The notes under the pieces: generated by a model | What the model was told of the DNA's origin: nothing | The model's input: only the letters and a program-made list of their open reading frames with translations | Databases searched by the model: none | Assembly (NCBI GenBank): GCA_945877525.1 | Contig: CAMDVP010000002.1 | Location: forward strand, 1-40,720 | DNA from: an uncultured Clostridia bacterium | GTDB taxonomy: Bacteria > Bacillota > Clostridia > Christensenellales > Aristaeellaceae | DNA: 40,720 nt | Direction: 5' to 3' | In this document: positions 8,322 through 38,834 of the stretch, piece after piece | How the letters are laid out: every line of letters begins with the position of its first letter | Position numbering within the stretch: the first letter of the stretch is position 1 | Translations under genes and position numbers: made by a program

Positions 8322-8426
8322 TGAAACATCTTGAATCTGCTTGACAAGAAAAAGCCGTTCATCTATCATGAGGGCAGATGATGAGGAAGCAGCCCCTGGC
8401 AATCTGTGTGCTTGGAGGAGATGAAG

Positions 8427-9605
8427 ATGGCACGGCTTCTGCTTGTGGAGGATGAACGCCTCCTGCTGACTGACCTGGCTGAGCAGTTTCCCTGGCACGA
8501 ATGCGGTATTACCCAGCTGATGACGGCGCAGAACGGACAGGAAGCGTGGGTAATCTGCCAGCGGGAAAGACCGGATATCCTGCTGACCGATATCCGCATG
8601 CCTGGTATGACGGGTCTGGATCTGGCGCGACAGGTTCAGACCCTGGAATATCCCGTGGCGGTGATTTTCATCAGCGCCTACAGTGATATTGCGTATTTGA
8701 GAGAGGCATTGCGGCTGCATGCGGCGGACTATCTGCTCAAGCCGGTGGATGAGGACGAGCTGGCCCGGGTATTGATGCGGGCGCAGTATGCCCTTGAGCA
8801 TTCCGCGCGCATGCGGGAGCGAAGCGATATGGTACATCAGTATACCGACGAACTGAGGGGATCCGTCCTTTCGGCTATCCTGCTGAAGCGGGGCGACAGC
8901 GCCATGCTGATGGCACAGGCGGAAATTGTCGGCCTTGTATCCGGGGAGGACTGGTGGTGCGTGCTGATGTCACCCGCGCAGGCGCTTCTTGGCGGGGAGC
9001 AAATGGAACAGTTGGCCAGAAAGCATTTGTCGGAGCTTGTGCAGGAGGCAATCGACATTCCTCTTGAGGAAGGCGCCGCAGCGGTGCTCCGGCTGAGCGG
9101 CAAGCCGCTGGCGGCTGCACTGGATGCAATACAGCAGGACGCGGCGCGCTTTTTTTCGGATGGGGACGGGAAAAGCATAGAACTGTCCATTACGGATTCG
9201 CTGGATTCGCTGTATGGACTGGGAAGCGAATTTGTGCTTCAGCTGCAGAGTAAACAGGCCTTCGGCAGCGGCAGCCTGTCCAATGCAGACGCCCTTTGCC
9301 GCCGGATTGTGTCCTATATCGATCAGCATTATATGGAGCATGATCTGTCCGTGTCTACCATGAGCCGAGAGCTGCATTATACAGCCTCCTACATCTGTAC
9401 GGTTTTTCGCAAAGAATACGGTCAGACGATACACAGCTACATCAACCAGCAGCGCCTGTATCATGCACGGGTACTGTTGCGCAATACCAGCCTTCCCGTC
9501 AGCCGGATTGCTGAAATGACCGGCTATGAAAATGAGAATTACTTTTCCCGTATGTTCAAAAGCGATGCGGGGGTTAGTCCCCTGCGTTACCGGAGGAATT
9601 CATGA
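8427..9605 (+). CDS. YesN-like response regulator (receiver + AraC-type HTH)
   Basis: RLLLVEDERLLLTDL...DILLTDIRMPGMTGLDLA...FISAYSDIAYLREA...DYLLKPVDEDEL receiver. C-terminal AraC HTH: YTASYICTVFRKEYGQTIHSYINQQRLYHARVLLRNTSLPVSRIAEMTGYENENYFSRMFKSDAGVSPLRYRR. Confidence 0.95.
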   Translation: MARLLLVEDERLLLTDLAEQFPWHECGITQLMTAQNGQEAWVICQRERPDILLTDIRMPGMTGLDLARQVQTLEYPVAVIFISAYSDIAYLREALRLHAADYLLKPVDEDELARVLMRAQYALEHSARMRERSDMVHQYTDELRGSVLSAILLKRGDSAMLMAQAEIVGLVSGEDWWCVLMSPAQALLGGEQMEQLARKHLSELVQEAIDIPLEEGAAAVLRLSGKPLAAALDAIQQDAARFFSDGDGKSIELSITDSLDSLYGLGSEFVLQLQSKQAFGSGSLSNADALCRRIVSYIDQHYMEHDLSVSTMSRELHYTASYICTVFRKEYGQTIHSYINQQRLYHARVLLRNTSLPVSRIAEMTGYENENYFSRMFKSDAGVSPLRYRRNS

Positions 9606-11329
9606 AACACCATGCCGCAAAGGGAGTCAGTCTGAAATACAAGCTCGTTTTTTGCCTGGCCATGCTGATGATCTGTGCCCTTGGCACCTATACGGCAGTT
9701 TGCGTGGGAGCGGTGCGGGACGAGTTTTCGACTGCGGCACTCAGGAGCATGGTTTCGACTGTGCAAGGCAACCAGGAGAAGCTGTCTGCCACCTTGCGGC
9801 AGCTGTCTGCCCAATGTATCACGCTGGCCAGCAGCTCCGAGCTGCAGGAAGGGCTGAACGGCTATGGCCGCCTGTCGCCTGTAGAGCAATGGGAGCGATG
9901 GCGCCGGATCGATGATCTGATGGACAACTGGCAGACATGCTCCGCTTATAACACAGTGCGGCTGTATCTGCCGGACAGCATGCGCTTTCTCCGTAACGGA
10001 AGCCGGTATGTTCCGGAGGTGGAGTCGCTCAAAGCAAAGATCCCGTTTTCTACCAGCCACGGCCAGCAGTTCTGGAGCATTGATCCGCACACCGGCCTGT
10101 GCTTCTGCTATGCGCCTGTGATCAGCGGCATGCAAACCAGCGCCTATGTGGAGCTGTCTGTCAGCCTGGACTGGTTCGAAAGCACGGCGGAGATCATGGA
10201 TTCTGTCAAAATGCCGATTTTCCTGACGGATCAAGAGGGAAATGTACTGCTTGGCGACAGCAAGGACAATGGAAGGCTTGAACTGGAAAGTGGCGTGCAG
10301 TCTGCTTCGGCAGGTCTGGAGGATCTGAAGCACGCTGTCGGCAGAAGCGATGCCTTTCTGATCTATGCCGAGGTGGAGGGCACGCCCTTCCGCCTGGCCT
10401 GTGAGCTGAGCGGCGAGGTGCTGGAGCAAAGCAGCAACGGCGTGGTTCAGCGGATGCTGAAGGCATGTGTGGCAATTGTGCTGGCTGCGGCATTGCTGGC
10501 CCTGGGCATGAGCAGCTGGCTGAACCGCAAGCTGAACCGTCTGACAGGCCGCATGGCGCAGCTGGAGCGGGGAGAACTGGATATCCAGCCCATTGCCGAA
10601 TCAAGAGATGAGCTTGACCAGGCGGTGAACCAGTTTGCCGACATGGCGTGCCAGCTCAAGAAGATGATGGATGACGTGCGCCACGCAGAGCAGCTGTGCA
10701 GGGAAAGCGAACTCCGCGTATTGCAATCCCAGATCAATCCGCATTTCATTGCCAATGCGCTGTCCTGCGTGGACGCGATGGCGCGGCAGAACAAAACGGC
10801 GCAGGTGCATGAGCTGATTAAGGAAATTGCCGCCTATCTGCGCCTTTCGCTAAACAAAACATGGCAGTTTACCACGCTGGAACGGGAACTGGAACTGGTG
10901 CGCACCTACTGGCGCATTCAGCAGGCCCGGTATGGCAGCGCCATTGAGCTGAGCGTATTGGCGCCTGCTGCGCTAATGACGGAACAGATACTGCCCCTGA
11001 CGCTGCAGACACTGGTGGAAAACGCTCTGATGCATGGCAACGAGCCGGATGCGCGCCACACGTTCCGGGTGGAACTGCGCATCCGACGCGAGGAACAGGT
11101 GCTGCTGATAGAGGTGGAGGATAATGGCGCGGGTATGTCGGAGGAGCGGCTTGAGCAGGTTCGCCAGGCTATTGGCAGCGCAGAGGTTTCCGAATGCTAT
11201 GGGCTGTGGAATGTGAACAGGCGCATCATTCAGCGCTATGGCGAAGATTATGGATTATCCATCCACAGTACTCTGGGGGTTGGAACACTGTGCATCCTGA
11301 CCATGCCTTCCTCTCAGGTGGAGGCCTGA
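9602..11329 (+). CDS. YesM-like sensor histidine kinase (HAMP, His_kinase, HATPase)
   Basis: LQSQINPHFIANALSCVDAMARQ (H-box type), HATPase motifs LVENALMHG and VEDNGAGM, two TM segments. Overlaps the RR gene by 4 nt. Confidence 0.95.
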   Translation: MKHHAAKGVSLKYKLVFCLAMLMICALGTYTAVCVGAVRDEFSTAALRSMVSTVQGNQEKLSATLRQLSAQCITLASSSELQEGLNGYGRLSPVEQWERWRRIDDLMDNWQTCSAYNTVRLYLPDSMRFLRNGSRYVPEVESLKAKIPFSTSHGQQFWSIDPHTGLCFCYAPVISGMQTSAYVELSVSLDWFESTAEIMDSVKMPIFLTDQEGNVLLGDSKDNGRLELESGVQSASAGLEDLKHAVGRSDAFLIYAEVEGTPFRLACELSGEVLEQSSNGVVQRMLKACVAIVLAAALLALGMSSWLNRKLNRLTGRMAQLERGELDIQPIAESRDELDQAVNQFADMACQLKKMMDDVRHAEQLCRESELRVLQSQINPHFIANALSCVDAMARQNKTAQVHELIKEIAAYLRLSLNKTWQFTTLERELELVRTYWRIQQARYGSAIELSVLAPAALMTEQILPLTLQTLVENALMHGNEPDARHTFRVELRIRREEQVLLIEVEDNGAGMSEERLEQVRQAIGSAEVSECYGLWNVNRRIIQRYGEDYGLSIHSTLGVGTLCILTMPSSQVEA

Positions 11330-13356: not shown

Positions 13357-13409
13357 CGTTGCGCCCAAGGCGCTTCGCAATAAACACTTATCGGAAGGGA
13401 GATACCAAG

Positions 13410-15096: not shown

Positions 15097-17508
15097 GTGA
15101 AAAAAACGCTGTATATGATTGGAAATGCCCACATCGACCCCGTGTGGCTCTGGCGGTGGACTGACGGCTTCAGCGAGGTTCGCTCCACCTTCCGCTCGGT
15201 GCTGGACAGGATGAACGAATACCCGGATTTCGTGTTTACCAGCGCGGCGGGGGCCTATTATGAATGGATCGAGCAGACCGAGCCGGACATGTTCCGGCAG
15301 ATTCAGCAGCGGGTGCGGGAAGGCCGCTGGAAGCTGGTGGGCGGCTGGTGGATTCAGCCCGACTGCAACATTCCCTGCGGTGAAAGCCTGGCCCGGCACG
15401 CACTGATTACCCAGCGTTACTTCCAGGAGAAGTTCGGCGTGACCGCCCATACCGGCTATAATGTAGATTCCTTCGGCCACAGCGGCGCCATCCCGAAAAT
15501 TCTGCGGAAATCCGGCATGTCGCATTATGTGTACATGCGCCCCGGCCAGCACGAGAAGGCGTATCCCGCCTGGACATTCCGCTGGCAAAGCCCCGAGGGA
15601 GAGTCGGTCAGTGCCTTCCGCATTCCCTTTGAATACTGCACCTGGGGCAAGGAGCTGACCCAGACCATCGACCGGGTGGCCCATGAGGTGACGGACGATC
15701 ACGGGCTGATGTGCTTCTATGGCGTGGGCAACCATGGCGGCGGCCCGACCAAGGAGAACCTGAACAGCATCGCTGAGCTGAACGGGCGGGATGATGTGGA
15801 GCTTCGCCTGTCCGACCCGGACGCCTTCTTCGAGGGGGTGGACGAGAGCCGCCTGCCCGTGGTCTGCGGCGACCTGCTGCACCATGCCAGCGGCTGCTAT
15901 GCCGGAAACTTTGCCGTGAAAAAGTGGAACCGCGATGCGGAAAACAGGCTCCTCACCGCGGAAAAATGGGCCTCCGCCGCCCGACTGCTTCTCGGCATAC
16001 CCTATGATGCACAGGCCTTCACCAGGGCATGGAAGAAGGTGCTGTTCAACCAGTTCCATGATATTCTGGCGGGCTGCTGCCTGCAGGAGGGCTATGACGA
16101 TGCGCGGGAGGATTTCGGCTATGCCCTTTCCTTCGGCGCGGAGCAGATCAACCGTGCCCAGCAAGCACTCATGCGCGCTGTCGCCATTCCCTTTGAGGAG
16201 GGCGCGTTCCAGTATGTGGTGTTCAATCCCCATGGCTTTGCAGCCAAGGCTCCCGTGAAGCTGGAGATTGCCGCATACAAGCAGCCCATGGCGCTCTTCG
16301 ATAGCCATGGCGAGCCTGTGCCTTATCAGCTGACCCATGCTTCCGCTGCAGCAAACGGCCGGCAGGCGCTGCACTTTGTGGCGCAGGTTCCCGCCATGGG
16401 GTGGCAGGTGTACACCATGCGTCCCATCGAGGCCGCTCCTGTGCAGCAGGAGGCGGACGACGGACTGATGCTGGAAAACGCCCTGGTGCAGCTGCGCTTT
16501 GACCCCGAAGCGGGCGTGACGGGCCTTCTGCTGAAGGAAACCGGTACGGAGATGCTCAGCGCGCCGGTGGAGGCGCTTGTCATGGACGATCCCAGCGACA
16601 CCTGGTCCCACGCGGTGCTGCGCTTCGACCGTCTGGAGGGCCGCCTGCCCGTGCGCAGCGTTCGCGTGACGGAAAGCGGCGCGGTGTTCAAGACCATCCG
16701 CGTGGAAATGGCCGACGGCGACAGCGCCCTGCGGCTGGACTTCACCCTGTATCATGAGCTGCCGCAAATCTTCATGGAATGCCGCCTGGACTGGTTCAAG
16801 CGCCAGAAGCTGCTCAAGCTCCACCTGCCCCTCCGGCACAACTACGGCCACGTCACCGTGCAGAATCCCTTCGGCTTCACCGATCATCCCCTGGATGGCG
16901 TGGAATATCCCATGCAGGAGTATGTGGATCTCACGGGCGTGACGCCGGATCCCGAACAGCGCATTCAGGGCCTGACCGGGCTGGCTGTGCTCAACGACGG
17001 CAAGTCCGCCTATTCCGCCGAGCGCAAGGCCATCGACATCACCCTGGTTCGCAGCCCCTACTATGCCAACCATGAGCCCTTCGTGGTGGAGGAGGGCATG
17101 GATTACCCCACGGTGGACTGGGGCCGGCAGCATTTCCGGCTGTCGCTTCTGCCCCATGCCGGCACGCCGGAGGATGGGCATGTGGAGGAGCAGGCACTGC
17201 TGCTCAACGCGCCCCTGACCATCCTGCCGGAGGGCGCCCATGACGGCGGCCTGGCGCAGGAGGGCAGCGTGCTGGCCCTGGAGGCCGCCCACACAGTGAT
17301 TGACGCGGTGAAGCTGGCGGAGGATGGCACGGACGCGCTGATTGTCCATTTACACGAAACGGCCCGGCGGGAGGAGAGCGTCAGGCTGCGCATCCCATGC
17401 CTTGGCTGCGACGCGACGCTGGACGTCAGGCCTGGGGAAATCCGCGTGCTGCGTGTGTCCCTGGCGGATGGCAGCGTCAGCGAAACCGACCTGACCGAGA
17501 TGAGCTGA
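15097..17508 (+). CDS. GH38 alpha-mannosidase
   Basis: MIGNAHIDPVWLWRW and YNVDSFGHSGAIPKIL are GH38 signatures. GTG start at 15097 with AAGGAG 8 nt upstream is preferred to TTG 15073. Confidence 0.93.
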   Translation: MKKTLYMIGNAHIDPVWLWRWTDGFSEVRSTFRSVLDRMNEYPDFVFTSAAGAYYEWIEQTEPDMFRQIQQRVREGRWKLVGGWWIQPDCNIPCGESLARHALITQRYFQEKFGVTAHTGYNVDSFGHSGAIPKILRKSGMSHYVYMRPGQHEKAYPAWTFRWQSPEGESVSAFRIPFEYCTWGKELTQTIDRVAHEVTDDHGLMCFYGVGNHGGGPTKENLNSIAELNGRDDVELRLSDPDAFFEGVDESRLPVVCGDLLHHASGCYAGNFAVKKWNRDAENRLLTAEKWASAARLLLGIPYDAQAFTRAWKKVLFNQFHDILAGCCLQEGYDDAREDFGYALSFGAEQINRAQQALMRAVAIPFEEGAFQYVVFNPHGFAAKAPVKLEIAAYKQPMALFDSHGEPVPYQLTHASAAANGRQALHFVAQVPAMGWQVYTMRPIEAAPVQQEADDGLMLENALVQLRFDPEAGVTGLLLKETGTEMLSAPVEALVMDDPSDTWSHAVLRFDRLEGRLPVRSVRVTESGAVFKTIRVEMADGDSALRLDFTLYHELPQIFMECRLDWFKRQKLLKLHLPLRHNYGHVTVQNPFGFTDHPLDGVEYPMQEYVDLTGVTPDPEQRIQGLTGLAVLNDGKSAYSAERKAIDITLVRSPYYANHEPFVVEEGMDYPTVDWGRQHFRLSLLPHAGTPEDGHVEEQALLLNAPLTILPEGAHDGGLAQEGSVLALEAAHTVIDAVKLAEDGTDALIVHLHETARREESVRLRIPCLGCDATLDVRPGEIRVLRVSLADGSVSETDLTEMS

Positions 17509-17530
17509 TTGGCAAAGGAGAACTCCTGTC

Positions 17531-18178
17531 ATGGAAAAACGCATCGCGATTCTTCACACCACGCCCGCCACCATCGCATCTCTGCGGGAGTTATGCGCCC
17601 GCCTGCTGCCTGGCGTAACGGTCAACCATTTTCTGGATGACAGCCTCTTGCCTGAAATCAACCGGGACGGCTGCATCAGCAACAGCGTGCGGGAACGCTT
17701 TGCCCGTCTGGTGGCCCTGGCGGCAGCCTCGGGCCCGCGGGTCATCATGAGCGCCTGCTCCACAGTGGGCGGGCTGCTGGAGGCGCTTCGCCCGGACAGC
17801 GCGATTCCCCTTGCGCGCATTGATGAGCCCATGGCCTGTCAGGCTGCGGAAAGCCGGGGACGACTGATTGTATGCGCCACCTTGCCTTCCACCCTCGGCC
17901 CTACGCTGGATCTGATCCGGCGCAAGGCAGGGCCCGAACGGCCCATTGACAGCCTGCTGGTGGAAGGGGCGGGAGCGCTGCTTTCTGCCGGTGATCAGGA
18001 AGGGTATCTCTCTCTGATTGCGTCCCGCCTGCATGAGGCTGCTGCAACGCATGAATGCGTGGTGCTGGCCCAGGCCTCCATGGCGCAGGCTGCGCAGCGC
18101 CTGCCCCCGGAGGAGCGGGCCCGACTGCTTACCAGTCCCGAGAGCGGAGTGGCCGCCCTGAAGAAATTTGTGAAATGA
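17531..18178 (+). CDS. Asp/Glu/hydantoin racemase-superfamily protein
   Basis: IMSACSTVGGLLEAL (Cys motif), LARIDEPMACQA, C-terminal VVLAQASMAQAAQRLP. Confidence 0.75.
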   Translation: MEKRIAILHTTPATIASLRELCARLLPGVTVNHFLDDSLLPEINRDGCISNSVRERFARLVALAAASGPRVIMSACSTVGGLLEALRPDSAIPLARIDEPMACQAAESRGRLIVCATLPSTLGPTLDLIRRKAGPERPIDSLLVEGAGALLSAGDQEGYLSLIASRLHEAAATHECVVLAQASMAQAAQRLPPEERARLLTSPESGVAALKKFVK

Positions 18179-18192
18179 ACCGAGGAAATGCT

Positions 18193-19062
18193 ATGAATCG
18201 TACGGAAATTCTTCAACTATTTGATCGTGCCCGCCGGGGCGGCTATGGCATCGGCTCCTTTTCGCCGCGGAATACGGTGCTGATTGACAGCGTGCTGGGC
18301 GCGGCCCAGGCACAGCGCTCGCCTGTGCTGGTGCAGATGTCCGCCAATGAGATGAACTGGTTCTCCTGTGACCCGGAAACCTTTGCCCGGGCCTACTTTG
18401 CCGCGAAGAAGCGCTTTAGCGCCGAGTCCGTGCTGCACCTGGACCACACCAAGGATGTGGACACCGTGTTCCGGGCCATTGACGCGGGCTTTGAGTCGGT
18501 GATGTTTGACGGCTCGCGCCTGCCCTATGAGGAAAACCTGAGCCTGACCCGTCGGGTGGCGGAGTATGCACATGCCCGGGGTGTCTGCGTGGAGGCGGAG
18601 CTGGGCGCCATCGGCGGCGCGGACAAGCTGGAAACCGGCAGCGACGAAACCCTGTATACCGATCCTGCGCAGGCGGAGGACTTCGTCCGTCGCTCCGGCT
18701 GCGACATGCTGGCGGTCAGCGTGGGCACAGCCCATGGCGTGTACCCGGTCAAGAACCCGAGGATCGACTTCGACCGCCTGATGCAAATCCGTCGGAGGAC
18801 GGACGCGGTGCTTGTGCTGCACGGCGGCTCGGGCCTGCCGGAGGAAACCATCCGCCGTGCCATCCGGGAGGGCGTGGGGAAAATCAATATTGCCACCGAC
18901 CTGGAGTTGGCCTTCCAGCAGGTGACCGGCCGGGGCCGCATGCCTAATGCGGAAACCCTGCAGCTGCCCGCCGATATGCTGGCGGAGGGTGTGCGGCAGG
19001 TGCAGGCCCTGGTAGAGGACCGTATCGTCCGTTACCTGCTCTCCGGCGGAAAGGCGGACTGA
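18193..19062 (+). CDS. class II ketose-bisphosphate aldolase (FbaA/GatY family)
   Basis: YGIGSFSPRNTVLIDSVLGAAQAQRSPVLVQMS, HLDHTKD, VMFDGSRLPYEENL, VEAELGAIGG, VSVGTAHGVYP, VLHGGSGLPEETIRRAIREGVGKINIATDL. Confidence 0.93.
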   Translation: MNRTEILQLFDRARRGGYGIGSFSPRNTVLIDSVLGAAQAQRSPVLVQMSANEMNWFSCDPETFARAYFAAKKRFSAESVLHLDHTKDVDTVFRAIDAGFESVMFDGSRLPYEENLSLTRRVAEYAHARGVCVEAELGAIGGADKLETGSDETLYTDPAQAEDFVRRSGCDMLAVSVGTAHGVYPVKNPRIDFDRLMQIRRRTDAVLVLHGGSGLPEETIRRAIREGVGKINIATDLELAFQQVTGRGRMPNAETLQLPADMLAEGVRQVQALVEDRIVRYLLSGGKAD

Positions 19063-19065
19063 GCC

Positions 19066-20349
19066 ATGGCGGACAAGCTGCGCGTCGGTATTGTGGCCGA
19101 TGATATCACAGGCGCCAACGATGTGGGCGCCATGCTGGCCCGCAACGGCTATGTCTGCACGGTTATCTCCCTGGCGGAGAACCCGGTGCCCGGGGATTTC
19201 GAGGGCTCCGACGCGCTGGTGATCAACACGGGCAGCCGCCTGGACACGCCGGAAATGGCTGCGGAGAAGTCCGCACGGGCTGCGGCGTTCCTGCGCAGGA
19301 TGGGCTGTGATCGCTTTTCCGCGAAAACATGCAGCGTGTTTCGCGGAAACATTGGCGCGTCCCTGGATGCGGTGCAGGATGCGGTGGGTGAGGATTGTAC
19401 CATGGTGGTGCTGGGCTTTCCGGCCAACGGGCGCACCACGCTGCATGGCGTGCATTATGTGCGTGGCGTGCCTCTGGAAAGAACAGCCTTCGCTGCAGAT
19501 CCGGTGAACCCCATGCATCTGTCCCGCCTGCGGGACATCCTGGCCCAGCAGTCCAAGCGGCCAAGTGCGGAGTTTCCCTATGAATGGCTGGAATTGCCCC
19601 TGGAGAAACAGCAGATCCTGCTGGAGGAACTGAAGGCCCGGGCGCGGTACATCCTCTTTGATGTGCGGGATGACAACGACCTGCAGCTGATTGCCCGACT
19701 GATTGGCGGCGAACGCTCCATCGCCGGGGCCAGCGCCATCTTCGGCGCGCTGCCGCGGGTCTGGGGCTGCGCTGCCACACCGGTGCCCTGCCCCCTCCAT
19801 CCCTCCGTGCCGGGCACCCTGATCGTTTCCGGCAGCCTGACGCCCCAAACCCGTGCGCAGACCGCTGTGCTGCGGGAACACGGCATTCCCTGCGCAAGGC
19901 TTGATCCCGTCCTTCTGCTGGAGGAAAACTGTGATACATTATATGACCGGCTGACTGAAAAGCTGACCGCGCATTTGTCCGCCGGGCAGAGCGTGCTGCT
20001 GTGCGCCGATCAGGACAGCTGCCGCGTGGCCGACGCCGCGGCGCGAAGGGGCATAGATTCCCGGACCATGGGGCGGCGGATCACTTCTGCCCTGGCGCTT
20101 CTGGCCGGACGGGCCTGCCAGGCCGGCGGGGTGCGGCGCGTGCTGGTGGCCGGCGGCGAAACCAGCGACTGCGTCAGCGCTGCACTGGGTGTGCGCAGCA
20201 TGCGAATCTGGGAAGAACTGGAGCCCGGCATCCCCCTGATGACGGGGCGCACCCGGGACGGCGGGGAGCTGCTGCTGGTGTTCAAGTCGGGCAGCTTCGG
20301 TTCGGACGGCTTCCTGCTGGAAGCCATGCGGCGCATGAATCAAGCATAA
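19066..20349 (+). CDS. four-carbon acid sugar kinase family (DUF1537) protein
   Basis: VGIVADDITGANDVGAMLARNGY, FSAKTCSVFRGNIGASLDAV, LVSGSLTPQTRAQ and VLVAGGETSDCVSAALG motifs. Confidence 0.88.
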   Translation: MADKLRVGIVADDITGANDVGAMLARNGYVCTVISLAENPVPGDFEGSDALVINTGSRLDTPEMAAEKSARAAAFLRRMGCDRFSAKTCSVFRGNIGASLDAVQDAVGEDCTMVVLGFPANGRTTLHGVHYVRGVPLERTAFAADPVNPMHLSRLRDILAQQSKRPSAEFPYEWLELPLEKQQILLEELKARARYILFDVRDDNDLQLIARLIGGERSIAGASAIFGALPRVWGCAATPVPCPLHPSVPGTLIVSGSLTPQTRAQTAVLREHGIPCARLDPVLLLEENCDTLYDRLTEKLTAHLSAGQSVLLCADQDSCRVADAAARRGIDSRTMGRRITSALALLAGRACQAGGVRRVLVAGGETSDCVSAALGVRSMRIWEELEPGIPLMTGRTRDGGELLLVFKSGSFGSDGFLLEAMRRMNQA

Positions 20350-20362
20350 CGGAGGAATTCCC

Positions 20363-22051
20363 ATGAAGCTGATTAAAGAACCTGTTCTGCGGGTGGAAGC
20401 TGACCTGTACGCCCTCGAATTCCTGCCTGACCGGCCCGCTGCGCGCGTGACCGACCAACGGGGCGATGTGGTGGGCGATCTCTTTCTTGTGTCCTCCTGC
20501 CATGCGCGGGAAGGCTATGACGTCACTTCCCGACTGTCTGCGTGGACGGTGGAGGAGGGGCCGGAGGAAATCCAACTGACGGCGGAGGCCGACTCCCTCG
20601 TATGGAAGCGGAAGCGGATTACCCTGCGGCTGCTGCGGGACCGCATCCTCTACGGCATAACTGTGGAGGGCGAGGGCACGCTGACGGAAACCGAGCTGCT
20701 CAGCGGCCTGTATACCGGCTGCAGCCGCCGCTTTACCAGCGCGCGGTTCTATTCCGGCTTTCGGGGTGAAACCCTGTTCAATCCCGAGCCTGACGGCAGC
20801 GAGGTCTATCAGCGCCCGCTGAACGAGCGCTCCCTTATCGATATGACCGGTGTACCCATTCCCGGGAGAGACGGCTGGTTCTTTACCCCGCCGCCCTTCT
20901 GCTTTGTGCTGCGCCGGGGCATCACCTGCATGACCCTGGGCGTGGCGGCCAGGCCCGGGCAGCACACATTCACCGAGGTGGAATACACAGGCGGCAGCGG
21001 TCAGGGGCTGATCGTCCGCTATGAGGGCCGCACCCGGGTGCAGGGGACGTATGACCTGCCGGAGGTTCACATGATCTTTGGCACGGACGAATACGCCCTG
21101 CTTGGCGAGTTCTGCAAGGCCGAACGCCTGCCCTGCAGCCATGAGGAAACGCCTGCGTGGTGGAGGCGGCCCATCTTCTGCGGCTGGGGTGCGCAAAGCG
21201 CCCTGTCCCGGGACGAGCATCAGCCCGCGCCTGCCCTGGCCTGCCAGACGTTCTATGAAAAATTCACCGCTTCTCTGGATGCGAAGGGAATTGACCCCGG
21301 CACCATCGTCATCGACGACAAGTGGCAGCAGGCTTATGGTCTGAATGCCCCTGACCCTGTCAAATGGCCGGACATGAAGGGGTTCATCCGAAGCATGCAT
21401 CAGAAGGGGCGACGGGTGCTGCTCTGGCTTAAGGCGTGGGATTGCGAGGGCGTGGATGCTGATCTGTGCATTCGCGACTTTGCGGGAAATCCGCTTTCCA
21501 TTGACCCTGAGCATCCGGCGTATCAGGCTCTGTTTGCGAGAGCCTGCCGGGAACTGCTGTCCCCGGAGGGGCTGGATGCCGACGGCTTCAAGATTGATTT
21601 CACCGCTCGTATGCCCACCTGTCCGGGCTGCAGGCAGTACGGCGAGCACTGGGGGCTGGAGCTGATGCGCGACTACCTGGCTATGGTCTACGACAGTGCC
21701 AAGGCCGTCAAGTCCGATGCCCTGGTGATGTGTCACTGCCCCCATCCCTACTTGGCTGACAAGCTGGACATGATCCGCCTGAACGATGTGAACACCGGCC
21801 GCCCCGTATGCCGGCAAATGCGTCACCGCGCCGCTGTGGTGCGCGCAGCTATGCCCGACCGGCTGATTGATACGGACAACTGGCCCATGCCGGACAAGGC
21901 CTCCTGGCTGGACTATGTGCGTATTCAGCCCGAGCTGGGCGTGCCGTCGCTGTATTATCTGTGGCACATGGACAACAGCCCCGAGGATATCACCGACGAG
22001 GATCTTGAGGTGGTCCGGGAAAGCTGGCGGCGCTGGAACAGCGGCGAATAA
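20363..22051 (+). CDS. putative glycoside hydrolase with clan GH-D/GH31-like (beta/alpha)8 barrel
   Basis: PGTIVIDDKWQQAYGLNAPDPVKWPDMKGFIRSMHQKGRRVLLWLKAWD...DGFKIDFTARMPTCPGC resembles GH36/GH31 barrels, with a candidate nucleophile Asp in KIDF. Exact family uncertain. Confidence 0.7.
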   Translation: MKLIKEPVLRVEADLYALEFLPDRPAARVTDQRGDVVGDLFLVSSCHAREGYDVTSRLSAWTVEEGPEEIQLTAEADSLVWKRKRITLRLLRDRILYGITVEGEGTLTETELLSGLYTGCSRRFTSARFYSGFRGETLFNPEPDGSEVYQRPLNERSLIDMTGVPIPGRDGWFFTPPPFCFVLRRGITCMTLGVAARPGQHTFTEVEYTGGSGQGLIVRYEGRTRVQGTYDLPEVHMIFGTDEYALLGEFCKAERLPCSHEETPAWWRRPIFCGWGAQSALSRDEHQPAPALACQTFYEKFTASLDAKGIDPGTIVIDDKWQQAYGLNAPDPVKWPDMKGFIRSMHQKGRRVLLWLKAWDCEGVDADLCIRDFAGNPLSIDPEHPAYQALFARACRELLSPEGLDADGFKIDFTARMPTCPGCRQYGEHWGLELMRDYLAMVYDSAKAVKSDALVMCHCPHPYLADKLDMIRLNDVNTGRPVCRQMRHRAAVVRAAMPDRLIDTDNWPMPDKASWLDYVRIQPELGVPSLYYLWHMDNSPEDITDEDLEVVRESWRRWNSGE

Positions 22052-22080
22052 TGTATTGAATGATCCGGAGGTATGCCGAT

Positions 22081-24645
22081 ATGCGTCTGCCCCTGCTTGA
22101 TTCCTGTGATGTGCTGATTGCCGGCAGCGGCCTGTCCGCCATGGCCCGGGCCCTGGAGCTTGCCGATGGACATCGGGTGCTGCTGGTGTCGGAGGACACC
22201 TGCCTGTATGCCGATCTGGATCGTTCCTGCGACTGGCGTCTTCCGCAGAACCTGCCCGAAGCGCTTCGAACGCAGCTGTTTCCCGAAGCGCTTCGCCGGG
22301 AAAACGGTCTGTTTCATCCGGACGGGCTGAAGCGCCACGGTGAGCGTTTGATGGCGCAGCGGGGCGTTTCCCTGCTGTATGCCTGTCAGGTGCTGGGACG
22401 GGCGGGGGACTGCGCTGTGATTGCCCATAAATCCGGTCTGTATGCCATCCGCTGTGCTCAGGCTATAGACGCCCGGGCTGGGGAACGGCTTTCCCGGCCT
22501 TGCTATTGCCTGCAGACCATGCGCGGACGGGAACTGCAGGTGCTTCGGATTCCCATGGCGGAGGAGGGCATCCTGCCGCAGACCCTGTTCTGCCGTTATG
22601 AAACAGCCTTAACATGCCTGCCGAAGGGAAATACGCTGGCCCGGGGCGGATATGCCCTGACGGAGGCGGAGGGGCTTCACTTCTCGCCTGCGCCCATGCC
22701 GCACTTGGCCGATGTGCTCCTGGGATTGCAGGATCCGCTGCGGCATAATCCGCTGTTCGATCAGGCGGAACAGACTGTCGAGCTTCCCGGTCTGTCTGCG
22801 CAGGAGGATGCATACGATGCGGTGGTTGTGGGCGGCGGCACTGCCGGCGCGGCAGCGGCACTGTTCTGTGCCCGGCAGGGGCTGAAGACACTGCTGATGG
22901 AAATGAACCATCAGCTGGGCGGCACGGCCACGGCAGGCGGCGTGAGTACCTACTGGTTCGGCCTGCGCGAAGGCGCCACCCGGCAGATTGACCAGGCGGT
23001 GGCGGAATACTGCCGCCGTCTTGACCTGCCCCGGCAGGCCTGCCTGTGGAGCGAGGACGATACCTTCCCGCCGGATCTGAAGGCTCATGCGCTGCTGGGC
23101 CTGTGCCTGGATGCGGGGGTGGACATTCATCTGGGCAGTCTGGCGTGCGGCGTCAGGCGGGAGGGGCAGCGCGTGACGGGCGTGTACGAGGCGCAGGAGG
23201 GCGCGCTGCGTTATCATGCTGCAAGCATGATTCTTGACTGTACCGGTGATGGCGATGTGTGCATGTTTGCCGGAGCGGCGCATACCTATGGCAGCGAACG
23301 GGACTGCATGACCTACTGGGCTTCCCTGGCCCAGTACACTGCGCCGGATCAGTACAGAAACAATTTCTCCACCATGGTGCATGTGGGCGACCCGCGGGAC
23401 TATACCCGCTTTATCCAGGCGGGCAGGCTCCGGGGCAAGGACATGTATGACCATGGCCGGTATGTGGCGGTGCGGGAATCCCGGCATATCCGCGGCATGG
23501 CGCAGGTAACCCTGGATGCGATCCTGTCGATGAAGCCGACGGAGCAGATGCTGTATACCTGCTTCAGCAACTATGATCCCAAGGGCCGCCTGACGGATGA
23601 TCGGGCGTACTTTGGGCTTTTGTGCCCCAATCAGCGAATTCCCGTGCCCCGGGGCGCTGTGATTCCTGTGGATGGGTCGGGCTGTCCGCTGGAGGGCCTG
23701 CTGGTGGGCGGCAAGGCCATCAGCTGCACCCATGATGCGTTCCCGGGCATCCGCATGCAGCCGGATTTGCAGCGGCAGGGGCTGGCCCTGGCGGCGCTGG
23801 CGGGGCAGTGCATTGCCCAGGGCGTTCCTGCCTGGGAGGCCCGTGGGGTGGACGAGGCGATCCTGTCCCTTGGTGGTGATACGGCCCGCCCCGATTACGA
23901 AGCTGTGCCGCCCCTTGACAGGACGATTGCGTCCCTTCGCGGCAACGAGCCCTGGGAATGGCTGGATGCGCCGGCGGATGCCTGCACAGTCCGGGTGGAG
24001 CCGGTGGTACAGGTGATGACGGCACCCCCGGCGGAGGCCCTGCCGCTCCTGCGCGAGGCGTGGAAGCAGGCCGAAGCGCCGGAGCTGCGCCTGCTGCTGG
24101 CCCGGCTGCTTCTGTGGCATGGCGACGAGCGCGGCGCAGGGGTCGTCATCCGCACGGCGGAAACCATGATGGACGCGGCAGATGGGCTTCCCCGGCGCAT
24201 CGGGTCGGTGAACTACGGTCAGCTGCTACCCGACCATGGGCTGATGCCGGAACTTGTCTATCTGCTCAACAGCCTGAGCCATACGACTTCCGCCGATGTG
24301 ATGCCCGTGCTGTCGCGCATGGTGGCGCGGCTGGAAACCTCCGCGCGGGATTGGCACGATTTGCGGGCCGGCATCTACTGCTACTGCGAATGTCCCGCCT
24401 ATGTGGCCCTGGGCCGCAGGGACAGGGCGCTGATTCCACTGATCCGGCGGATTCTGGCTCTGCCGGAACTGAACAGCCCCGCAGCGGATGGACTTTTGCA
24501 GGAGCGCTTTGACATGCTGCGGATCACGCTACTGAATGCGCTGCACGCCCTGGGGGAGGATACGGGCCGCACGGGCCTGGAGGCCTATCTGCAGGACGAG
24601 CGGCGTCCCTTTGCGCTGGCTGCCGCCACGCTGCTGAAGTCATGA
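22081..24645 (+). CDS. FAD-dependent oxidoreductase (FAD_oxidored family) with extra N-terminal Rossmann-like segment and C-terminal helical repeat region
   Basis: DAVVVGGGTAGAAAALFCARQGLKTLLMEMNHQLGGTATAGGVSTYWFG. Start ATG 22081 preceded by CCGGAGG. Confidence 0.85.
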   Translation: MRLPLLDSCDVLIAGSGLSAMARALELADGHRVLLVSEDTCLYADLDRSCDWRLPQNLPEALRTQLFPEALRRENGLFHPDGLKRHGERLMAQRGVSLLYACQVLGRAGDCAVIAHKSGLYAIRCAQAIDARAGERLSRPCYCLQTMRGRELQVLRIPMAEEGILPQTLFCRYETALTCLPKGNTLARGGYALTEAEGLHFSPAPMPHLADVLLGLQDPLRHNPLFDQAEQTVELPGLSAQEDAYDAVVVGGGTAGAAAALFCARQGLKTLLMEMNHQLGGTATAGGVSTYWFGLREGATRQIDQAVAEYCRRLDLPRQACLWSEDDTFPPDLKAHALLGLCLDAGVDIHLGSLACGVRREGQRVTGVYEAQEGALRYHAASMILDCTGDGDVCMFAGAAHTYGSERDCMTYWASLAQYTAPDQYRNNFSTMVHVGDPRDYTRFIQAGRLRGKDMYDHGRYVAVRESRHIRGMAQVTLDAILSMKPTEQMLYTCFSNYDPKGRLTDDRAYFGLLCPNQRIPVPRGAVIPVDGSGCPLEGLLVGGKAISCTHDAFPGIRMQPDLQRQGLALAALAGQCIAQGVPAWEARGVDEAILSLGGDTARPDYEAVPPLDRTIASLRGNEPWEWLDAPADACTVRVEPVVQVMTAPPAEALPLLREAWKQAEAPELRLLLARLLLWHGDERGAGVVIRTAETMMDAADGLPRRIGSVNYGQLLPDHGLMPELVYLLNSLSHTTSADVMPVLSRMVARLETSARDWHDLRAGIYCYCECPAYVALGRRDRALIPLIRRILALPELNSPAADGLLQERFDMLRITLLNALHALGEDTGRTGLEAYLQDERRPFALAAATLLKS

Positions 24646-24779: not shown

Positions 24780-24975
24780 ATACTATTCTTATTCTAAACG
24801 ATTATAAGGATGCGGTGCGAAGGAGTGCAGAGGGCGACGGCTCGCCAGTGGCGAGTCCGCCGAAGGCGGAAGTCGAAAGCGAAGCGACGATGACCGCAAA
24901 GCCCTCTGCTCGCCTCCGCAGAGGCGAAATCCTTTTGCCGCATACGAAAGATATGATTTAGAAACAGATTAGTAT
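24780..24975. repeat. MITE-like palindromic element with imperfect terminal inverted repeats and internal hairpins
   Basis: Left end ATACTATTCTTATTCTAAACGATT; reverse complement of right end ATACTAATCTGTTTCTAAATCAT. Inside: GCAGAGGGC/GCCCTCTGC, CTCGCCagtGGCGAG, CCGCCgaaGGCGG, TCGCCTCcgcaGAGGCGA. Confidence 0.7.
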
Positions 24976-25114: not shown

Positions 25115-25780
25115 TTAAGGCTGCGGCCAGGGACGGGCGGGCTTGTAGCCGCTCCGCAGCAGGAAATCTTCCCGCACGCTGTCCGAAACACCCTGCAGCG
25201 TGATGCCTGCGCGCTTGGCCTCCAGCGCCATGCGGCAGCTGTTTTCCAGCACCTCCAGGCCGGTGCATGCCTCCTGCAGGGAGGTGTCATACACCATCAC
25301 GCCGTGATTTTTCATCAGGATGATATTGCCGTGAGCGCCGGCCTCCTCGATGGCGCAGGCCAAAGCGTTGCTGCCCGGATGGGCGTAGTCCACCCGCTCG
25401 ATCCGCTGCAGGTAGTACATGTTTTCCACAAACAGATTCTGGGGGATTTCCAGATCGCTGGAGGCTGCGAGGGTTGTGTAGAAGGGCGAAACATGCACCG
25501 CTGCCCCGGCCCAGGGCGTGCGGCGGTACAGCCCCAGGTGGCATGGAAGCTCCTTGGAGGGCTTGCGGCCGGTGAACTGCCCCGTGGCAATGTCGCACAG
25601 GGCAAAGTCCTCCTCCCGCAGGGCGTCAAAGCGCGTGCCGCTGGCGGTGACAACCGCCTGCTCCTCGCTGATGCGCACGCTCATGTTGCCCGCGCTGCCC
25701 CAGGTCAAATGATGCTCCATGATCCATTGACCCCAGCGGATCATCCCCGCTACGGCTTCCTCATAGCTTGCAAACTTCAT
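25115..25780 (-). CDS. class II aldolase/adducin-family sugar-phosphate aldolase
   Basis: WGSAGNMSVRI, SGTRFDALREEDFALCDIATGQ, PSKELPCHLGLY, ILMKNHGVMVYDTSLQEA. Confidence 0.88.
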   Translation of the reverse strand: MKFASYEEAVAGMIRWGQWIMEHHLTWGSAGNMSVRISEEQAVVTASGTRFDALREEDFALCDIATGQFTGRKPSKELPCHLGLYRRTPWAGAAVHVSPFYTTLAASSDLEIPQNLFVENMYYLQRIERVDYAHPGSNALACAIEEAGAHGNIILMKNHGVMVYDTSLQEACTGLEVLENSCRMALEAKRAGITLQGVSDSVREDFLLRSGYKPARPWPQP

Positions 25781-27215
25781 GCTTTTTCTCCTCTCCCAGT
25801 GCGATGATCTGTTTCATCAGCGGCTTGTACGTCTGCTGATAGATGTCTGTATAAGCCCGGTGCAGGGCTGCCTCCGGCTCCAGGGTACGCGCCATGGACA
25901 GCGGGGGCATCACGGAAGTTCCTGTGGCCGGGCCAGAGGCTATTCGCGCAGCGCCGTACAGGGTACCCTCCTCCTCGGCGGGCAGGCAGACCTGCGCGCC
26001 GGTAACGTCTGCCAGTGTCTGCATCAGCCGTTCATGCCTTGTCAGTCCGCCGGCGCATACCAGGCGAGGCTGCTCGCCCATGGCTTCCAGCACACAGCGG
26101 GTTTCCATGGCAAGCCCCTCGTAGATTGCTGCTGCCAGTGCGCCGCGGGTGGCGTCGGCCCGTAGCCCTGCCAATGCGGCGCAGGCGTGGGGCTCCAGGT
26201 GGGGCGCGCCGCTGCCGGATAGGTAGGGCAGATAGACCATGCCCGTGGGGCGGGAAACTGCGGCGGCCTCAGCCATGAATGAGGCGTAATCCTCCCCGGG
26301 GAAAAGCAGATTCTTCCAGCAGTTGACCGAGGCGCCGGCGGACTGGATGGAGCCCAGACAGGTGTACCGGCCTGTTGGCGACGGCCCGTAGGATAGTCCG
26401 CTGAGCGCATCCTCCGGGGCGTAAGTCTTTTTTTCGCAGAGCATCACCTGCGCCGTGCCCATGGACACCATGACCCCGCCCCGGGTTAGAACGTCCGCAC
26501 CAAAGGCGGCGCAAACATGGTCGTGTCCGGCAATGCACACGGGAATGCCGCCCGGCAGTCCCATCACGCCCGGCAGTGTTTCGCCCATGGGCATGCCTGG
26601 GGCGGCGATGGGCGGCAGCACAGTTTCCGGCAGGCCCAGCGCTGCCAGAAAGCTCCTGTCCCAGCACCGCTGCGGCAGGCTGAAGGCCAGGGTGCGGGCT
26701 GCCAGGGTTTCGTCGGTTGCCATGCGCCCGGTCAGCAGCAGCGCCGCCTGCTCGACCACACCCAGAAAGCAGACGTCCCCGATGGGCTCCGAAAGCCCTG
26801 CCGCCATGTCCAGCAGCTTAAAGACGCCATACTTGTAGCTCATAGGCAATCCGGTCTGACGGCTGCGTTCGGCAAAGGCCGGTGAGTTCCGGAGCCGGTC
26901 AAACACCTCCATGGACCGTCCGTCATACCACGGGCGGATAGAGGTAAGCATCGCCCCTGTTTTACGGGAAACGAAGCCGCCGGATTCCGCCATGCCCGTC
27001 AATGCTACGGCGGTTGCATCGGACAGCCCGGGCAGTCCGGACAGCAGCTGTCGGAGGGACTCCTGCAGGCCATCCTGGGGAAAGCAGGTATAGGCGCCTT
27101 CTGGCCCGGTGGGCGTGGGTATGCGGCTCAGGCCCGCGCAACGCCCCTCTGTCGTGTACAGTGCAGCCTTCCAGCTGGTGGAGCCCAAATCCAGGGCAAG
27201 AATCACCGCTGTCAT
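25761..27215 (-). CDS. FGGY-family carbohydrate kinase
   Basis: ILALDLGSTSWKAALY, ALTGMAESGGFV, CIAGHDHVCAAFGADVL, YLPYLSGSGAPH, RLVCAGGLTRHERLMQTLADVTGAQV. Confidence 0.93.
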   Translation of the reverse strand: MTAVILALDLGSTSWKAALYTTEGRCAGLSRIPTPTGPEGAYTCFPQDGLQESLRQLLSGLPGLSDATAVALTGMAESGGFVSRKTGAMLTSIRPWYDGRSMEVFDRLRNSPAFAERSRQTGLPMSYKYGVFKLLDMAAGLSEPIGDVCFLGVVEQAALLLTGRMATDETLAARTLAFSLPQRCWDRSFLAALGLPETVLPPIAAPGMPMGETLPGVMGLPGGIPVCIAGHDHVCAAFGADVLTRGGVMVSMGTAQVMLCEKKTYAPEDALSGLSYGPSPTGRYTCLGSIQSAGASVNCWKNLLFPGEDYASFMAEAAAVSRPTGMVYLPYLSGSGAPHLEPHACAALAGLRADATRGALAAAIYEGLAMETRCVLEAMGEQPRLVCAGGLTRHERLMQTLADVTGAQVCLPAEEEGTLYGAARIASGPATGTSVMPPLSMARTLEPEAALHRAYTDIYQQTYKPLMKQIIALGEEKKHEVCKL

Positions 27216-27299
27216 CTCCTGTCATATTTTTTCACCATTGTAGCACGATCGCCAGCCGGATTCAAGAAAAAATCCGCAAGGGCTGCCCGGCCCCTCCAT

Positions 27300-27328
27300 T
27301 TGCATTTCCTTCATGGGTATGCTATAAT
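27300..27328 (+). promoter_or_regulatory. promoter for the DeoR-family regulator
   Basis: TTGCAT (27300-27305), 17 nt, extended -10 TGCTATAAT (TATAAT 27323-27328). Confidence 0.65.
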
Positions 27329-27367: not shown

Positions 27368-28138
27368 ATGATACCCTCCTTGCGCCAACAAAAGCTGTTG
27401 GATCTGTTACAGCAGGAGAAAAAGGTGTTTTTCCTTACGGAGCTGGTGGAGCAGCTGCACATCTCGGAGTCCACCCTGCGGCGGGATTTGAAGCTGCTTT
27501 CCGCCCAGGGGCGCATCAAGGTTCTGCGGGGCGGAGGCGTGTGCGTTAATCAGGGCAATGTGGAGCTGGATATCGAGTCCAAGCTGCATGTGGCCCTGGA
27601 GGAAAAGCGGAAAATCGCCCGCTTCGCTGCGGAGCTTGTGCAGGAGGGCGATACGCTGTTCCTGGATCCCTCCAGTATCTGCTACCTGATGCTGGACTAT
27701 CTGGTGAACAAGCGTGTCACCGTGGTGACCAACTCCTGCGCCAATGTGACCCGCATGCTTCACCTGGGCATTCCCTGCATCATGATCGGCGGGCAGACCA
27801 AGAAGGGTACCTTTGCCTGCATTGGCAGCATGGCGGAGGAAATGATGCGCCGCCTGTGGTTTAACCGGTGCTTCCTGGGGGCGGGCGGCATCACCCCCCA
27901 ATATGGCATTACCAACCACGATCCCGCGGAATGCGCGATCAAGCATCTGGCCATTGAGCATTCCGGCGAAACCATTTTCCTGATCAACTCCGCCAAGGCG
28001 GGGGTGATGACCATGTATCAGGTGGCGCCTGTTGACCGCTACCGGGTGCTGATGGATCAGCCGGTTCCGGAATTGGAAGGCTATGACAACATCCTTGTGG
28101 TGCCGGAGGACCGGGAGGATGCACAGGATCCGGCCTGA
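27368..28138 (+). CDS. DeoR/GlpR-family transcriptional regulator
   Basis: RQQKLLDLLQQEKKVFFLTELVEQLHISESTLRRDLKLLSAQGRIKVLRGGGV. The ORF track start at 27002 is far upstream; ATG 27368 fits the family N-terminus. Confidence 0.92.
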   Translation: MIPSLRQQKLLDLLQQEKKVFFLTELVEQLHISESTLRRDLKLLSAQGRIKVLRGGGVCVNQGNVELDIESKLHVALEEKRKIARFAAELVQEGDTLFLDPSSICYLMLDYLVNKRVTVVTNSCANVTRMLHLGIPCIMIGGQTKKGTFACIGSMAEEMMRRLWFNRCFLGAGGITPQYGITNHDPAECAIKHLAIEHSGETIFLINSAKAGVMTMYQVAPVDRYRVLMDQPVPELEGYDNILVVPEDREDAQDPA

Positions 28139-28466: not shown

Positions 28467-29474
28467 GTGCCGACGATCCATGATGTTGCCCTGCTGGCGG
28501 GCACATCCAAGAGCACTGTTTCCCGCTACCTGAACGGCGGCTCAATCAGCAGCTCCAAGGCGGCGGAAATCGAGCAGGCTATCCGCCGCTCGGGCTACAG
28601 CCCCAATGTCAACGCACGGCGGCTGGTGCAAAGCCGGACGAACATGCTTGGCATTGTGTTTGACGATATTGCCAATTACGTCTACGGTGACATGATGGCA
28701 GGCGTCCAGGCCGCCGCGCGCCGCCTGGGGTTCGGATGCATGTTCTATTCCCGGGCTACGGACGGGAAGCGTGAGACGGACTTTCTTTCCCTGCTGTCCT
28801 CCTGTACGGTGGACGGGTTGATCCTCATCGATCTGGGACGGCGCGATAAAAGCGAGGTCCGCCAGCTGGAGCGCAGCGGCTGCCCGATTGTGCTGGTGGG
28901 GGATGGCTGCGGCACGGAAACCCTGGCGGCGGTGGATGTGGACAATACCCAAGGCACCGAGCGGGAAACCGCTTACCTGATCCGGCAGGGGCACAGACGC
29001 ATTGCCTACCTGCAGGGGCCGGATGAAATGCCTGCGGCTGCGGCCCGCCTGAAGGGATACCTCAACGCTTTGCACGCGGCGGACATTCCAGTTGACCCGG
29101 CGCTGATTCGCCAGGTCAGCTGGACGGTGCGCGACGCTAACCGCTGCGTAACCCGGCTGATGGCGGAGCAGCCCTTTACGGCGCTGATTGGCTCCAATGC
29201 CTTTTCCACCTATGGCGCGCTGCTGGCCCTGGAGGACGGCGGCCGGCGTGTGCCGGAGGATGTGGCGCTGGCAGGCTTTGACGAGCATCCCCTGTGTGAG
29301 CATGTCCGTCCGGGCATCACGACGCTCAAGCAGCCTTTCTTTGAAATCGGTGAGGCGGCGGTGGAGCGCCTGGTACAGGGCTTTGAGGCGGAAAAGCCTG
29401 CGGGAGGAACCATTCTGATGCAGCCGGAGCTGCTGGTACGCGGAACCACCGAACAGAAAGGAGTCAGGGCATGA
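28467..29474 (+). CDS. LacI-family transcriptional regulator
   Basis: PTIHDVALLAGTSKSTVSRYLNGGSISSSKAAEIEQAIRRSGYSPNVNARRLVQSRTNMLGIVFDD. GTG start with AAGGAG upstream. Confidence 0.95.
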   Translation: MPTIHDVALLAGTSKSTVSRYLNGGSISSSKAAEIEQAIRRSGYSPNVNARRLVQSRTNMLGIVFDDIANYVYGDMMAGVQAAARRLGFGCMFYSRATDGKRETDFLSLLSSCTVDGLILIDLGRRDKSEVRQLERSGCPIVLVGDGCGTETLAAVDVDNTQGTERETAYLIRQGHRRIAYLQGPDEMPAAAARLKGYLNALHAADIPVDPALIRQVSWTVRDANRCVTRLMAEQPFTALIGSNAFSTYGALLALEDGGRRVPEDVALAGFDEHPLCEHVRPGITTLKQPFFEIGEAAVERLVQGFEAEKPAGGTILMQPELLVRGTTEQKGVRA

Positions 29475-31240: not shown

Positions 31241-31310
31241 CGGCAGCCCGGCTTTTCCTGATCACCACAGGCAACAGCCTGTGCAGATAAATCACAAGGA
31301 GGTATGTACC

Positions 31311-32752: not shown

Positions 32753-33475
32753 ATGATGCTGCTTCCGGGGGTTTATCAGGTGGCGGGGCCAAGTGTGTCT
32801 CACTTCTTTGACGCAACGGCTTATCTTTTTCCCTGCGATGGCGAGCTGATGCTGGTGGACTGCGCTACCAGGGAGGGACATGAGCAGATGCTGGCGAACA
32901 TCCGGCGCCTGGGCTTTGATCCTGCACGGCTGACCCGCGTACTGGGAACCCATGGACATTATGATCACATTGGCGGCGCGAAGCTGTTGCGGGAGAGCTT
33001 TGGCACCAGGCTGTATCTCCACAGCCTGGATCGCGAGCAGGTGGAAACGGGGGACAGCGTGCGCACCACCGCATCCCTGCTCTACGGCGTGGAGGCGGAG
33101 CCCATCCCGGTGGATGGCTGCCTGGAGGAGGGCGACAGCTTCCAGGTGGATGCGGGCGTGCTGCATGTGCTGCACACGCCGGGCCACAGCCCGGGCAGCT
33201 GCTGCTTTGTGCTGGAGCATACCTCCGGGCTTTCCATGCTGTTTGCGGGGGATACGCTCCACGGGGGCTACCACCCGCTGATCGGCGCCAACCTGGATAT
33301 CTGGCCTGAAAGCCTGAAGAAGCTGACCTCCCGGCACTTTGACTACTTCACTTTCGGGCACTGCAATCCCCAGCTGCTGTGCGATGCGGACGAGCGCATC
33401 CGCTGCCTGGTGCAGTCCTTTGGCAATTACCTGAACCCGTGGTTCAAGGATTTCTACCGTTCCTATCCCTATTGA
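32753..33475 (+). CDS. metallo-beta-lactamase-fold hydrolase
   Basis: LGTHGHYDHIGGAKLL, LHTPGHSPGSCCFV, FAGDTLHGG metal motifs. Confidence 0.9.
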   Translation: MMLLPGVYQVAGPSVSHFFDATAYLFPCDGELMLVDCATREGHEQMLANIRRLGFDPARLTRVLGTHGHYDHIGGAKLLRESFGTRLYLHSLDREQVETGDSVRTTASLLYGVEAEPIPVDGCLEEGDSFQVDAGVLHVLHTPGHSPGSCCFVLEHTSGLSMLFAGDTLHGGYHPLIGANLDIWPESLKKLTSRHFDYFTFGHCNPQLLCDADERIRCLVQSFGNYLNPWFKDFYRSYPY

Positions 33476-35147: not shown

Positions 35148-35155
35148 GGAGGATC

Positions 35156-38830: not shown

Positions 38831-38834
38831 GCCC

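Follow-up and report, generated by a model that had tools for sequence, protein, structure and literature searches.

A conserved candidate acid-sugar catabolic island joining glycoside hydrolases, a single-cysteine racemase-like protein, an aldolase and a DUF1537 kinase

Kinases of the DUF1537 family, as known from OtnK and OiaK, phosphorylate the CH2OH group beside the ketone of a keto acid, and DHAP can be released from their products in two ways, by an OtnC-type decarboxylation or by an FBA-type retro-aldol reaction. The locus described here lies in a 40,720-nt stretch of DNA from an uncultured Clostridia bacterium (hereafter the window, meaning the whole stretch analyzed). It shares with the 3-oxo-tetronate pathway for L-threonate and D-erythronate a DUF1537 kinase best matched by OtnK, an OtnC-like class II aldolase/adducin protein (ClII), a DeoR regulator and a probable DHAP product. 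However, its proteins score well under the equivalog cut-offs of that pathway, neither the dehydrogenase OtnD/LtnD nor the Hyi-like isomerase OtnI was recognized among the window genes scanned, and the island adds a racemase-like protein (RAC), an FBA/GatY-type aldolase (FBA), an FGGY kinase, a ROK-SIS protein and four glycoside hydrolases. To our knowledge, RAC belongs to no characterized Otn pathway. In the 3-oxo-isoapionate route (OiaK/OiaX), the DUF1537 kinase adjoins a RAC homolog in 12 loci retrieved here, but these homologs form a separate branch of the RAC tree, and the RuBisCO-like cleavage enzyme of that route (OiaX) was found within 8 kb of none of the 57 RAC loci of the island clade and was not recognized among the window genes scanned. 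PdxA2-type pathways (D-threonate, D-erythronate) likewise have a DUF1537 kinase in common with the island, which lacks PdxA. A second DUF1537 gene of this genome (G000, contig C25; L032:4046-8511) lies with PdxA, DHDPS-like and Fe-ADH genes in a conventional PdxA-type arrangement, and similar gene sizes recur in L034.

The earlier note had described a six-gene, one-strand operon with very short gaps, and six plus-strand genes are indeed present from 15097 to 24645, separated by 22, 14, 3, 13 and 8 bp (Table 1). Five of the six gene names that it gave are strongly backed by Pfam. The sixth, a GH-D/GH31-like hydrolase, is backed in part: its match to the Pfam GH31 barrel is weak (21.0 bits, below cut-off) and the profile match to GH31 alpha-galactosidases is partial, but its Asp motifs DGFKxDF and DxDNWP are invariant in 13 homologs. 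The GH38 protein has three domains, and its Zn-ligand and Asp-nucleophile motifs look intact (H12, D14, D124 and H321, in motifs invariant in 34 island GH38s, with residue roles that we assume from family knowledge). The model of the FAD oxidoreductase (mean pLDDT 52.9) was too poor for a structure search. Of the terminator placed after the operon, a 7-bp hairpin exists at 24910-24927, but its T tract is poor and the site no better than chance, with seven terminator-like sites in the region against 10.2 expected in shuffles.

The operon edge as first drawn also proved incomplete. Searching this genome with proteins of its relatives located the ClII and FGGY genes on the minus strand, convergent with the operon and divergent from the DeoR regulator, and each strand has promoter-like sites between the DeoR and FGGY genes (27237-27328). 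The view that the DUF1537 kinase lacks its usual partners does not hold, as both genes adjoin the operon on the opposite strand and belong to the conserved set; an isolated operon without kinase and aldolase partners is thereby ruled out. The ROK-SIS fusion, the MBL hydrolase, the GH13-like enzyme and the second ABC transporter are further members of that set, and the two-component pair upstream is local context outside the conserved core. A search of this genome for a phosphomannose isomerase that the ROK-SIS protein could replace gave two matches, both weak. Elsewhere in the window, an ABC permease pair on the minus strand (3667-5458) has one gene in two overlapping pieces (4509-4820 and 4763-5458), a possible frameshift, and a PNPOx-ferredoxin protein followed by a macro-domain protein (38207-39611) has no apparent relation to the island.

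Table 1. Features of the island and its surroundings in the window
Feature	Position	Strand	Evidence and remarks
GH36/raffinose-synthase-like hydrolase	6387..8321	+	PF05691, E 9e-59
AraC-type response regulator	8406-9605	+	Pfam; two-component pair, 8406..11329
Histidine kinase	9602-11329	+	Pfam; partner of the response regulator
ABC permeases	11509-12438, 12451-13356	+	Pfam; directly upstream of the operon
Solute-binding protein	13353-14876	+	Pfam; directly upstream of the operon
GH38 alpha-mannosidase-type hydrolase	15097..17508	+	PF01074/PF09261/PF07748; 196.7 bits
RAC, single-cysteine Asp/Glu-racemase-fold protein	17531..18178	+	PF01177, 44.7 bits (cut-off 31 bits)
Class II FBA/GatY-type aldolase	18193..19062	+	PF01116, E 5e-83, 279.4 bits; NIATD[L/V]E motif
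DUF1537 acid-sugar kinase	19066..20349	+	SBD_N and NBD_C (PF07005, PF17042); 180.1 + 112.4 bits
GH31/clan GH-D-like hydrolase	20363..22051	+	Profile match to GH31 alpha-galactosidases 8j53/8j50
FAD-dependent oxidoreductase	22060..24645	+	PF12831, E 4e-50, 172 bits; extra N- and C-terminal parts
ClII, class II aldolase/adducin	25115..25780	-	Closest to OtnC (3-oxo-tetronate-4-phosphate decarboxylase), its best-scoring NCBIfam family
FGGY carbohydrate kinase, XylB-like	25761..27215	-	Scores best as xylulokinase
DeoR-family regulator	27386..28138	+	PF00455/PF08220; true start slightly upstream of 27386
LacI-family regulator	28467..29474	+	Pfam
Second ABC system	29471-30370, 30371-31240 (permeases); 31212-32585 (binding protein)	+	Pfam
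MBL-fold hydrolase, possible lactonase	32753..33475	+	PF00753
ROK sugar kinase and GmhA-like SIS isomerase fusion	33498..35147	+	PF00480 + PF13580
GH13-like alpha-amylase-fold enzyme	35111..36589	+	PF00128

The same combination of genes is seen again in Paenibacillus/Bacillus, Lachnospiraceae (Eisenbergiella), Chloroflexota, Rubrobacter and Deinococcus, with Paenibacillus taihuensis, P. catalpae and Metabacillus niabensis among the cultured carriers. It comprises GH38, RAC, FBA, DUF1537, FGGY, ClII and ROK plus SIS, as well as the GH-D-like hydrolase, the FAD oxidoreductase, the MBL hydrolase and ABC transporters. Searching species genomes with a RAC profile retrieved 80 loci; for 46 of them (Bacillota, Chloroflexota and Actinomycetota), the flanking sequence that was fetched contains FBA, GH38 or both. 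The typical order is lacI-ABC-amidohydrolase-C19-(FGGY)-RAC-FBA-GH38-ClII-DUF1537-SIS-ROK-GH36 in Paenibacillus/Bacillus, with the FAD oxidoreductase after GH36 where the flank extends far enough; (MBL)-GH13-FADox-GH38-GH38-RAC-FGGY-FBA-DUF1537-SIS-ClII in Eisenbergiella and relatives; and GH-D-like-RAC-FGGY-MBL-GH38-GH2-ClII-DUF1537 in Anaerolineae. Two Deinococcus plasmids carry GH-D-like, GH38, RAC, FBA, ROK and SIS genes, with DUF1537 and ClII further along, and the nearest complete Clostridia variant (L061) reads GH38-GH31L-RAC-FGGY-FBA-DUF1537-GH38-ROKSIS. SIS and ROK are separate genes in most other islands, and many loci lack the FAD oxidoreductase and MBL genes. C19 (L080:7437-9476 and similar loci), a protein of about 680 residues recurrent in Bacilli islands, has no Pfam or NCBIfam match.

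Individual window genes have counterparts in these islands. Genes 35%–38% identical to the GH36 gene occur in those of Paenibacillus/Bacillus, at the head of which stand genes 38%–40% identical to the LacI gene, whereas Lachnospiraceae islands hold full-length homologs of the FAD oxidoreductase (36%–38%) and a GH13 gene (44%–47%) adjoining FAD oxidoreductase and GH38 genes. A genome of the same family carries most of the suite over three contigs at about 41%–83% identity (in a search that left out ClII), including an MBL ortholog (66%) and, directly after RAC-DUF1537, orthologs of the second ABC system (75%–80%). Window-type genes are sporadic among relatives, a spread that would fit horizontal transfer as a candidate explanation.

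RACs of island loci fall mostly into one clade of the RAC tree (58 rows, support 90), 45 rows of which were labeled island members. When this clade was taken by RAC sequence alone, neighbors within 8 kb differed between its 57 loci and 42 loci outside it: FBA was found at 40/57 versus 2/42, GH38 at 38/57 versus 0/42, ROK/SIS at 29/57 versus 1/42, ClII at 24/57 versus 1/42 and FGGY at 28/57 versus 5/42. This enrichment exceeds chance, by p-values that ignore relatedness, with a query profile built from island members and markers picked after some loci had been viewed. FBA, DUF1537 and ClII are each missing near RAC in some islands, so the islands demonstrate no single fixed linear pathway.

RAC resembles the Asp, Glu and hydantoin racemases and arylmalonate decarboxylase in fold (TM about 0.6-0.8) and in its first cysteine, and its model (pLDDT 95.7) best matched glutamate and aspartate racemases in a fold search. 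It differs at the site of the second catalytic cysteine (the GC motif of solved racemases), which, by profile alignments and motif comparison, corresponds to Q181; both C76 and Q181 are invariant in 45/45 homologs. Because only one cysteine is present and the second position is Gln, classical two-base racemization is unlikely, and a true amino-acid racemase is disfavored. The residues retained suggest instead proton transfer on an activated acid, as by an isomerase, epimerase or decarboxylase. On a Deinococcus taeanensis plasmid (L017:2650-2946), only 98 codons of RAC remain; the middle of the gene, and with it the conserved-cysteine region, is gone, and the GH38 and FBA neighbors are kept.

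Some loci carry a smaller unit. Three genomes from a single genus and a Mahella-like genome (L055-L057, L140) have RAC-FBA-DUF1537 but neither GH38 nor GH-D hydrolases alongside, and a Rhodococcus plasmid has RAC-DUF1537-FBA with sugar ABC genes and a gene of the enolase superfamily next to it. From these arrangements, RAC, the aldolase and the DUF1537 kinase probably form a core whose members work together. Outside the island clade, the order RuBisCO-like protein-DUF1537-RAC-SBF transporter is found at 12 loci, from Bacteroidota, Planctomycetota and Verrucomicrobiota; where these were scored, the RuBisCO-like protein was best matched by OiaX (506-524 bits) and the kinase by OiaK (389-450 bits). 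None of the 12 has FBA, and no retrieved locus combines FBA with a RuBisCO-like protein. As RAC and DUF1537 are constant and FBA or the RuBisCO-like protein varies, the C-C cleavage enzyme would appear to be interchangeable. RAC homologs also lie next to or near DUF1537 kinases on a Niallia megaplasmid (L016:9998-12922) and an Ilyobacter plasmid (L015), in the latter beside genes of the isocitrate/isopropylmalate-dehydrogenase family. At L030 (G056, contig C22), a DUF1537 gene near FBA and RAC is split: one piece spans 3836-4771 and the other begins to match at about 4590, reflecting a frameshift or an assembly error.

The proposal of a catabolic operon, in which hydrolysis of a glycan is coupled to a racemase-like enzyme, a kinase of the DUF1537 family and an aldolase for ketose phosphates, is supported. 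We give an even chance to a reading, drawn from gene content, in which it forms the center of an island for breaking down an oligosaccharide taken up by the cell. This would contain a mannose-like sugar and a second residue treated as an acid sugar, the latter by a route converging on DHAP. The order suggested in the note, with oxidation followed by isomerization, phosphorylation and cleavage, is plausible as a candidate sequence of steps, but the presence of two kinases, a pair of aldolases and ROK/SIS favors converging branches, two or more in number, over one linear chain. We infer the reactions, their order and the substrate as follows. The oligosaccharide would be imported by the ABC transporters and cleaved intracellularly by the GH38, GH36 and GH13 enzymes together with the GH-D-like one, and the ROK-SIS protein would phosphorylate the mannose-like unit freed by GH38 and then isomerize it to a ketose phosphate. 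The second unit may be oxidized by the FAD oxidoreductase and its lactone opened by the MBL hydrolase, after which RAC, as isomerase or epimerase, would shift a proton on the carbon adjacent to a carboxylate or carbonyl. Given the product chemistry of its family, the DUF1537 kinase would place phosphate on the CH2OH beside a ketone, and the bond beyond could be broken to give DHAP by OtnC-like decarboxylation or by FBA-type retro-aldol cleavage, the latter releasing an aldehyde without distal phosphate. One of the two aldolases might receive its ketose from the FGGY kinase. It counts against this reading that none of DUF1537, ClII, FGGY or ROK-SIS reached an NCBIfam equivalog cut-off.

Alternatively, the island may be a composite of known routes, namely a mannoside/galactoside locus (GH38, GH36, GH-D, ROK-SIS), ordinary 3-oxo-tetronate catabolism and an FGGY/FBA ketose-1-phosphate branch, with only the combination being new; we regard this as possible, if rather doubtful. 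The intact-looking GH38 motifs and the assignment of FGGY to xylulokinase would agree with it, as would the fact that OtnK and OtnC are the best-scoring families of the DUF1537 and ClII proteins. Both SBD_N and NBD_C of the kinase score above the Pfam cut-offs. However, the kinase reaches 228 bits as OtnK (cut-off 350) and ClII 99 bits as OtnC (cut-off 250), both wide misses. The lack of recognized OtnI-like and OtnD-like genes in the window and the presence of RAC also argue against a composite, and the minimal units pair DUF1537 tightly with FBA, without ClII.

The aldolase itself carries unusual residues. Its open reading frame was listed from 18055, and the ATG in Table 1 is most likely the start, being favored by the domain extent and a ribosome-site-like sequence (GAGGAAAT). 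Like the GatY, KbaY and FbaA ketose-bisphosphate aldolases, it matches the class II family and conserves the zinc-ligand His motifs (HLDHT, TAHG and LHGG). It differs at the motif that is D-T-[D/E]-L-R in KbaY-like and Helicobacter aldolases: nearly all island aldolases have NIATD[L/V]E (one copy was unmatched by the motif scan), with Ala for Asp and with Glu for the Arg of solved bisphosphate aldolases, a basic residue that we take to bind the distal phosphate. Asp288 of E. coli FbaA matters for cleavage (PMC5434028). We place the Ala of the island aldolases at its position. A glycolytic FBA was rejected, another aldolase of the same genome having the canonical KINIDSDLR. Inositol and YdjHI-like routes were also set aside, with no inositol genes recognized in the window and YdjI merely a weaker relative of the island FBA.

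These residues bear on a hexuronate route, in which DUF1537 would phosphorylate D-tagaturonate or a similar 5-keto-aldonate, FBA would yield DHAP and tartronate semialdehyde, and RAC would isomerize, racemize or decarboxylate the semialdehyde. Such a route is consistent with the minimal RAC-FBA-DUF1537 unit and with the phosphate beside a ketone established for the products of OtnK and OiaK; the Glu suggests a substrate without distal phosphate, and the Ala recalls, as we presume, tagatose-type aldolases. We nevertheless consider it unlikely, as no uronate isomerase or uronate-releasing hydrolase was recognized in the window, and ClII and FGGY would be left without explanation. It is similarly improbable that the five core enzymes form one linear pathway, in which FGGY would act on a seven-carbon ketose-uronate, FBA would yield DHAP and a four-carbon aldehyde acid, RAC would convert the latter to 3-oxo-tetronate as a cofactor-free aldose-ketose isomerase, and DUF1537 and the OtnC-like protein would release a second DHAP and CO2; if true, RAC would bring a new activity to the racemase fold. 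Apiose-type branched sugar-acid catabolism, with RAC marking an apionate route and FBA or ClII in place of OiaX, would account for RAC beside OiaK-like and OiaX-like proteins in the 12 loci described above, but is very improbable given that the RACs of those loci fall outside the island clade, that the window kinase gets a much lower OiaK score (106 bits) and that no island-clade RAC has a RuBisCO-like protein nearby.

The description of the island as a candidate unassigned pathway has become firmer through the conservation of its gene set across phyla. No solved pathway with an identical gene set was found in the searchable literature, and no paper in the open-access collection searched joins these genes, which is weak evidence as subscription work, including the main DUF1537 and apiose papers, is mostly outside that search. 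The island is real, conserved and, as far as could be searched, without a named-pathway match, and its enzyme families are known ones. Retention of the set across four or more phyla (Bacillota, Chloroflexota, Actinomycetota and Deinococcota) implies that its substrate is common in nature and, it seems, still unnamed. Gut Lachnospiraceae are among the hosts, and those that can be cultured, such as Paenibacillus and Bacillus, make direct testing possible. The single-cysteine RAC, common to the aldolase, RuBisCO-like and PdxA-like contexts of DUF1537, points to a missing shared step in acid-sugar catabolism.
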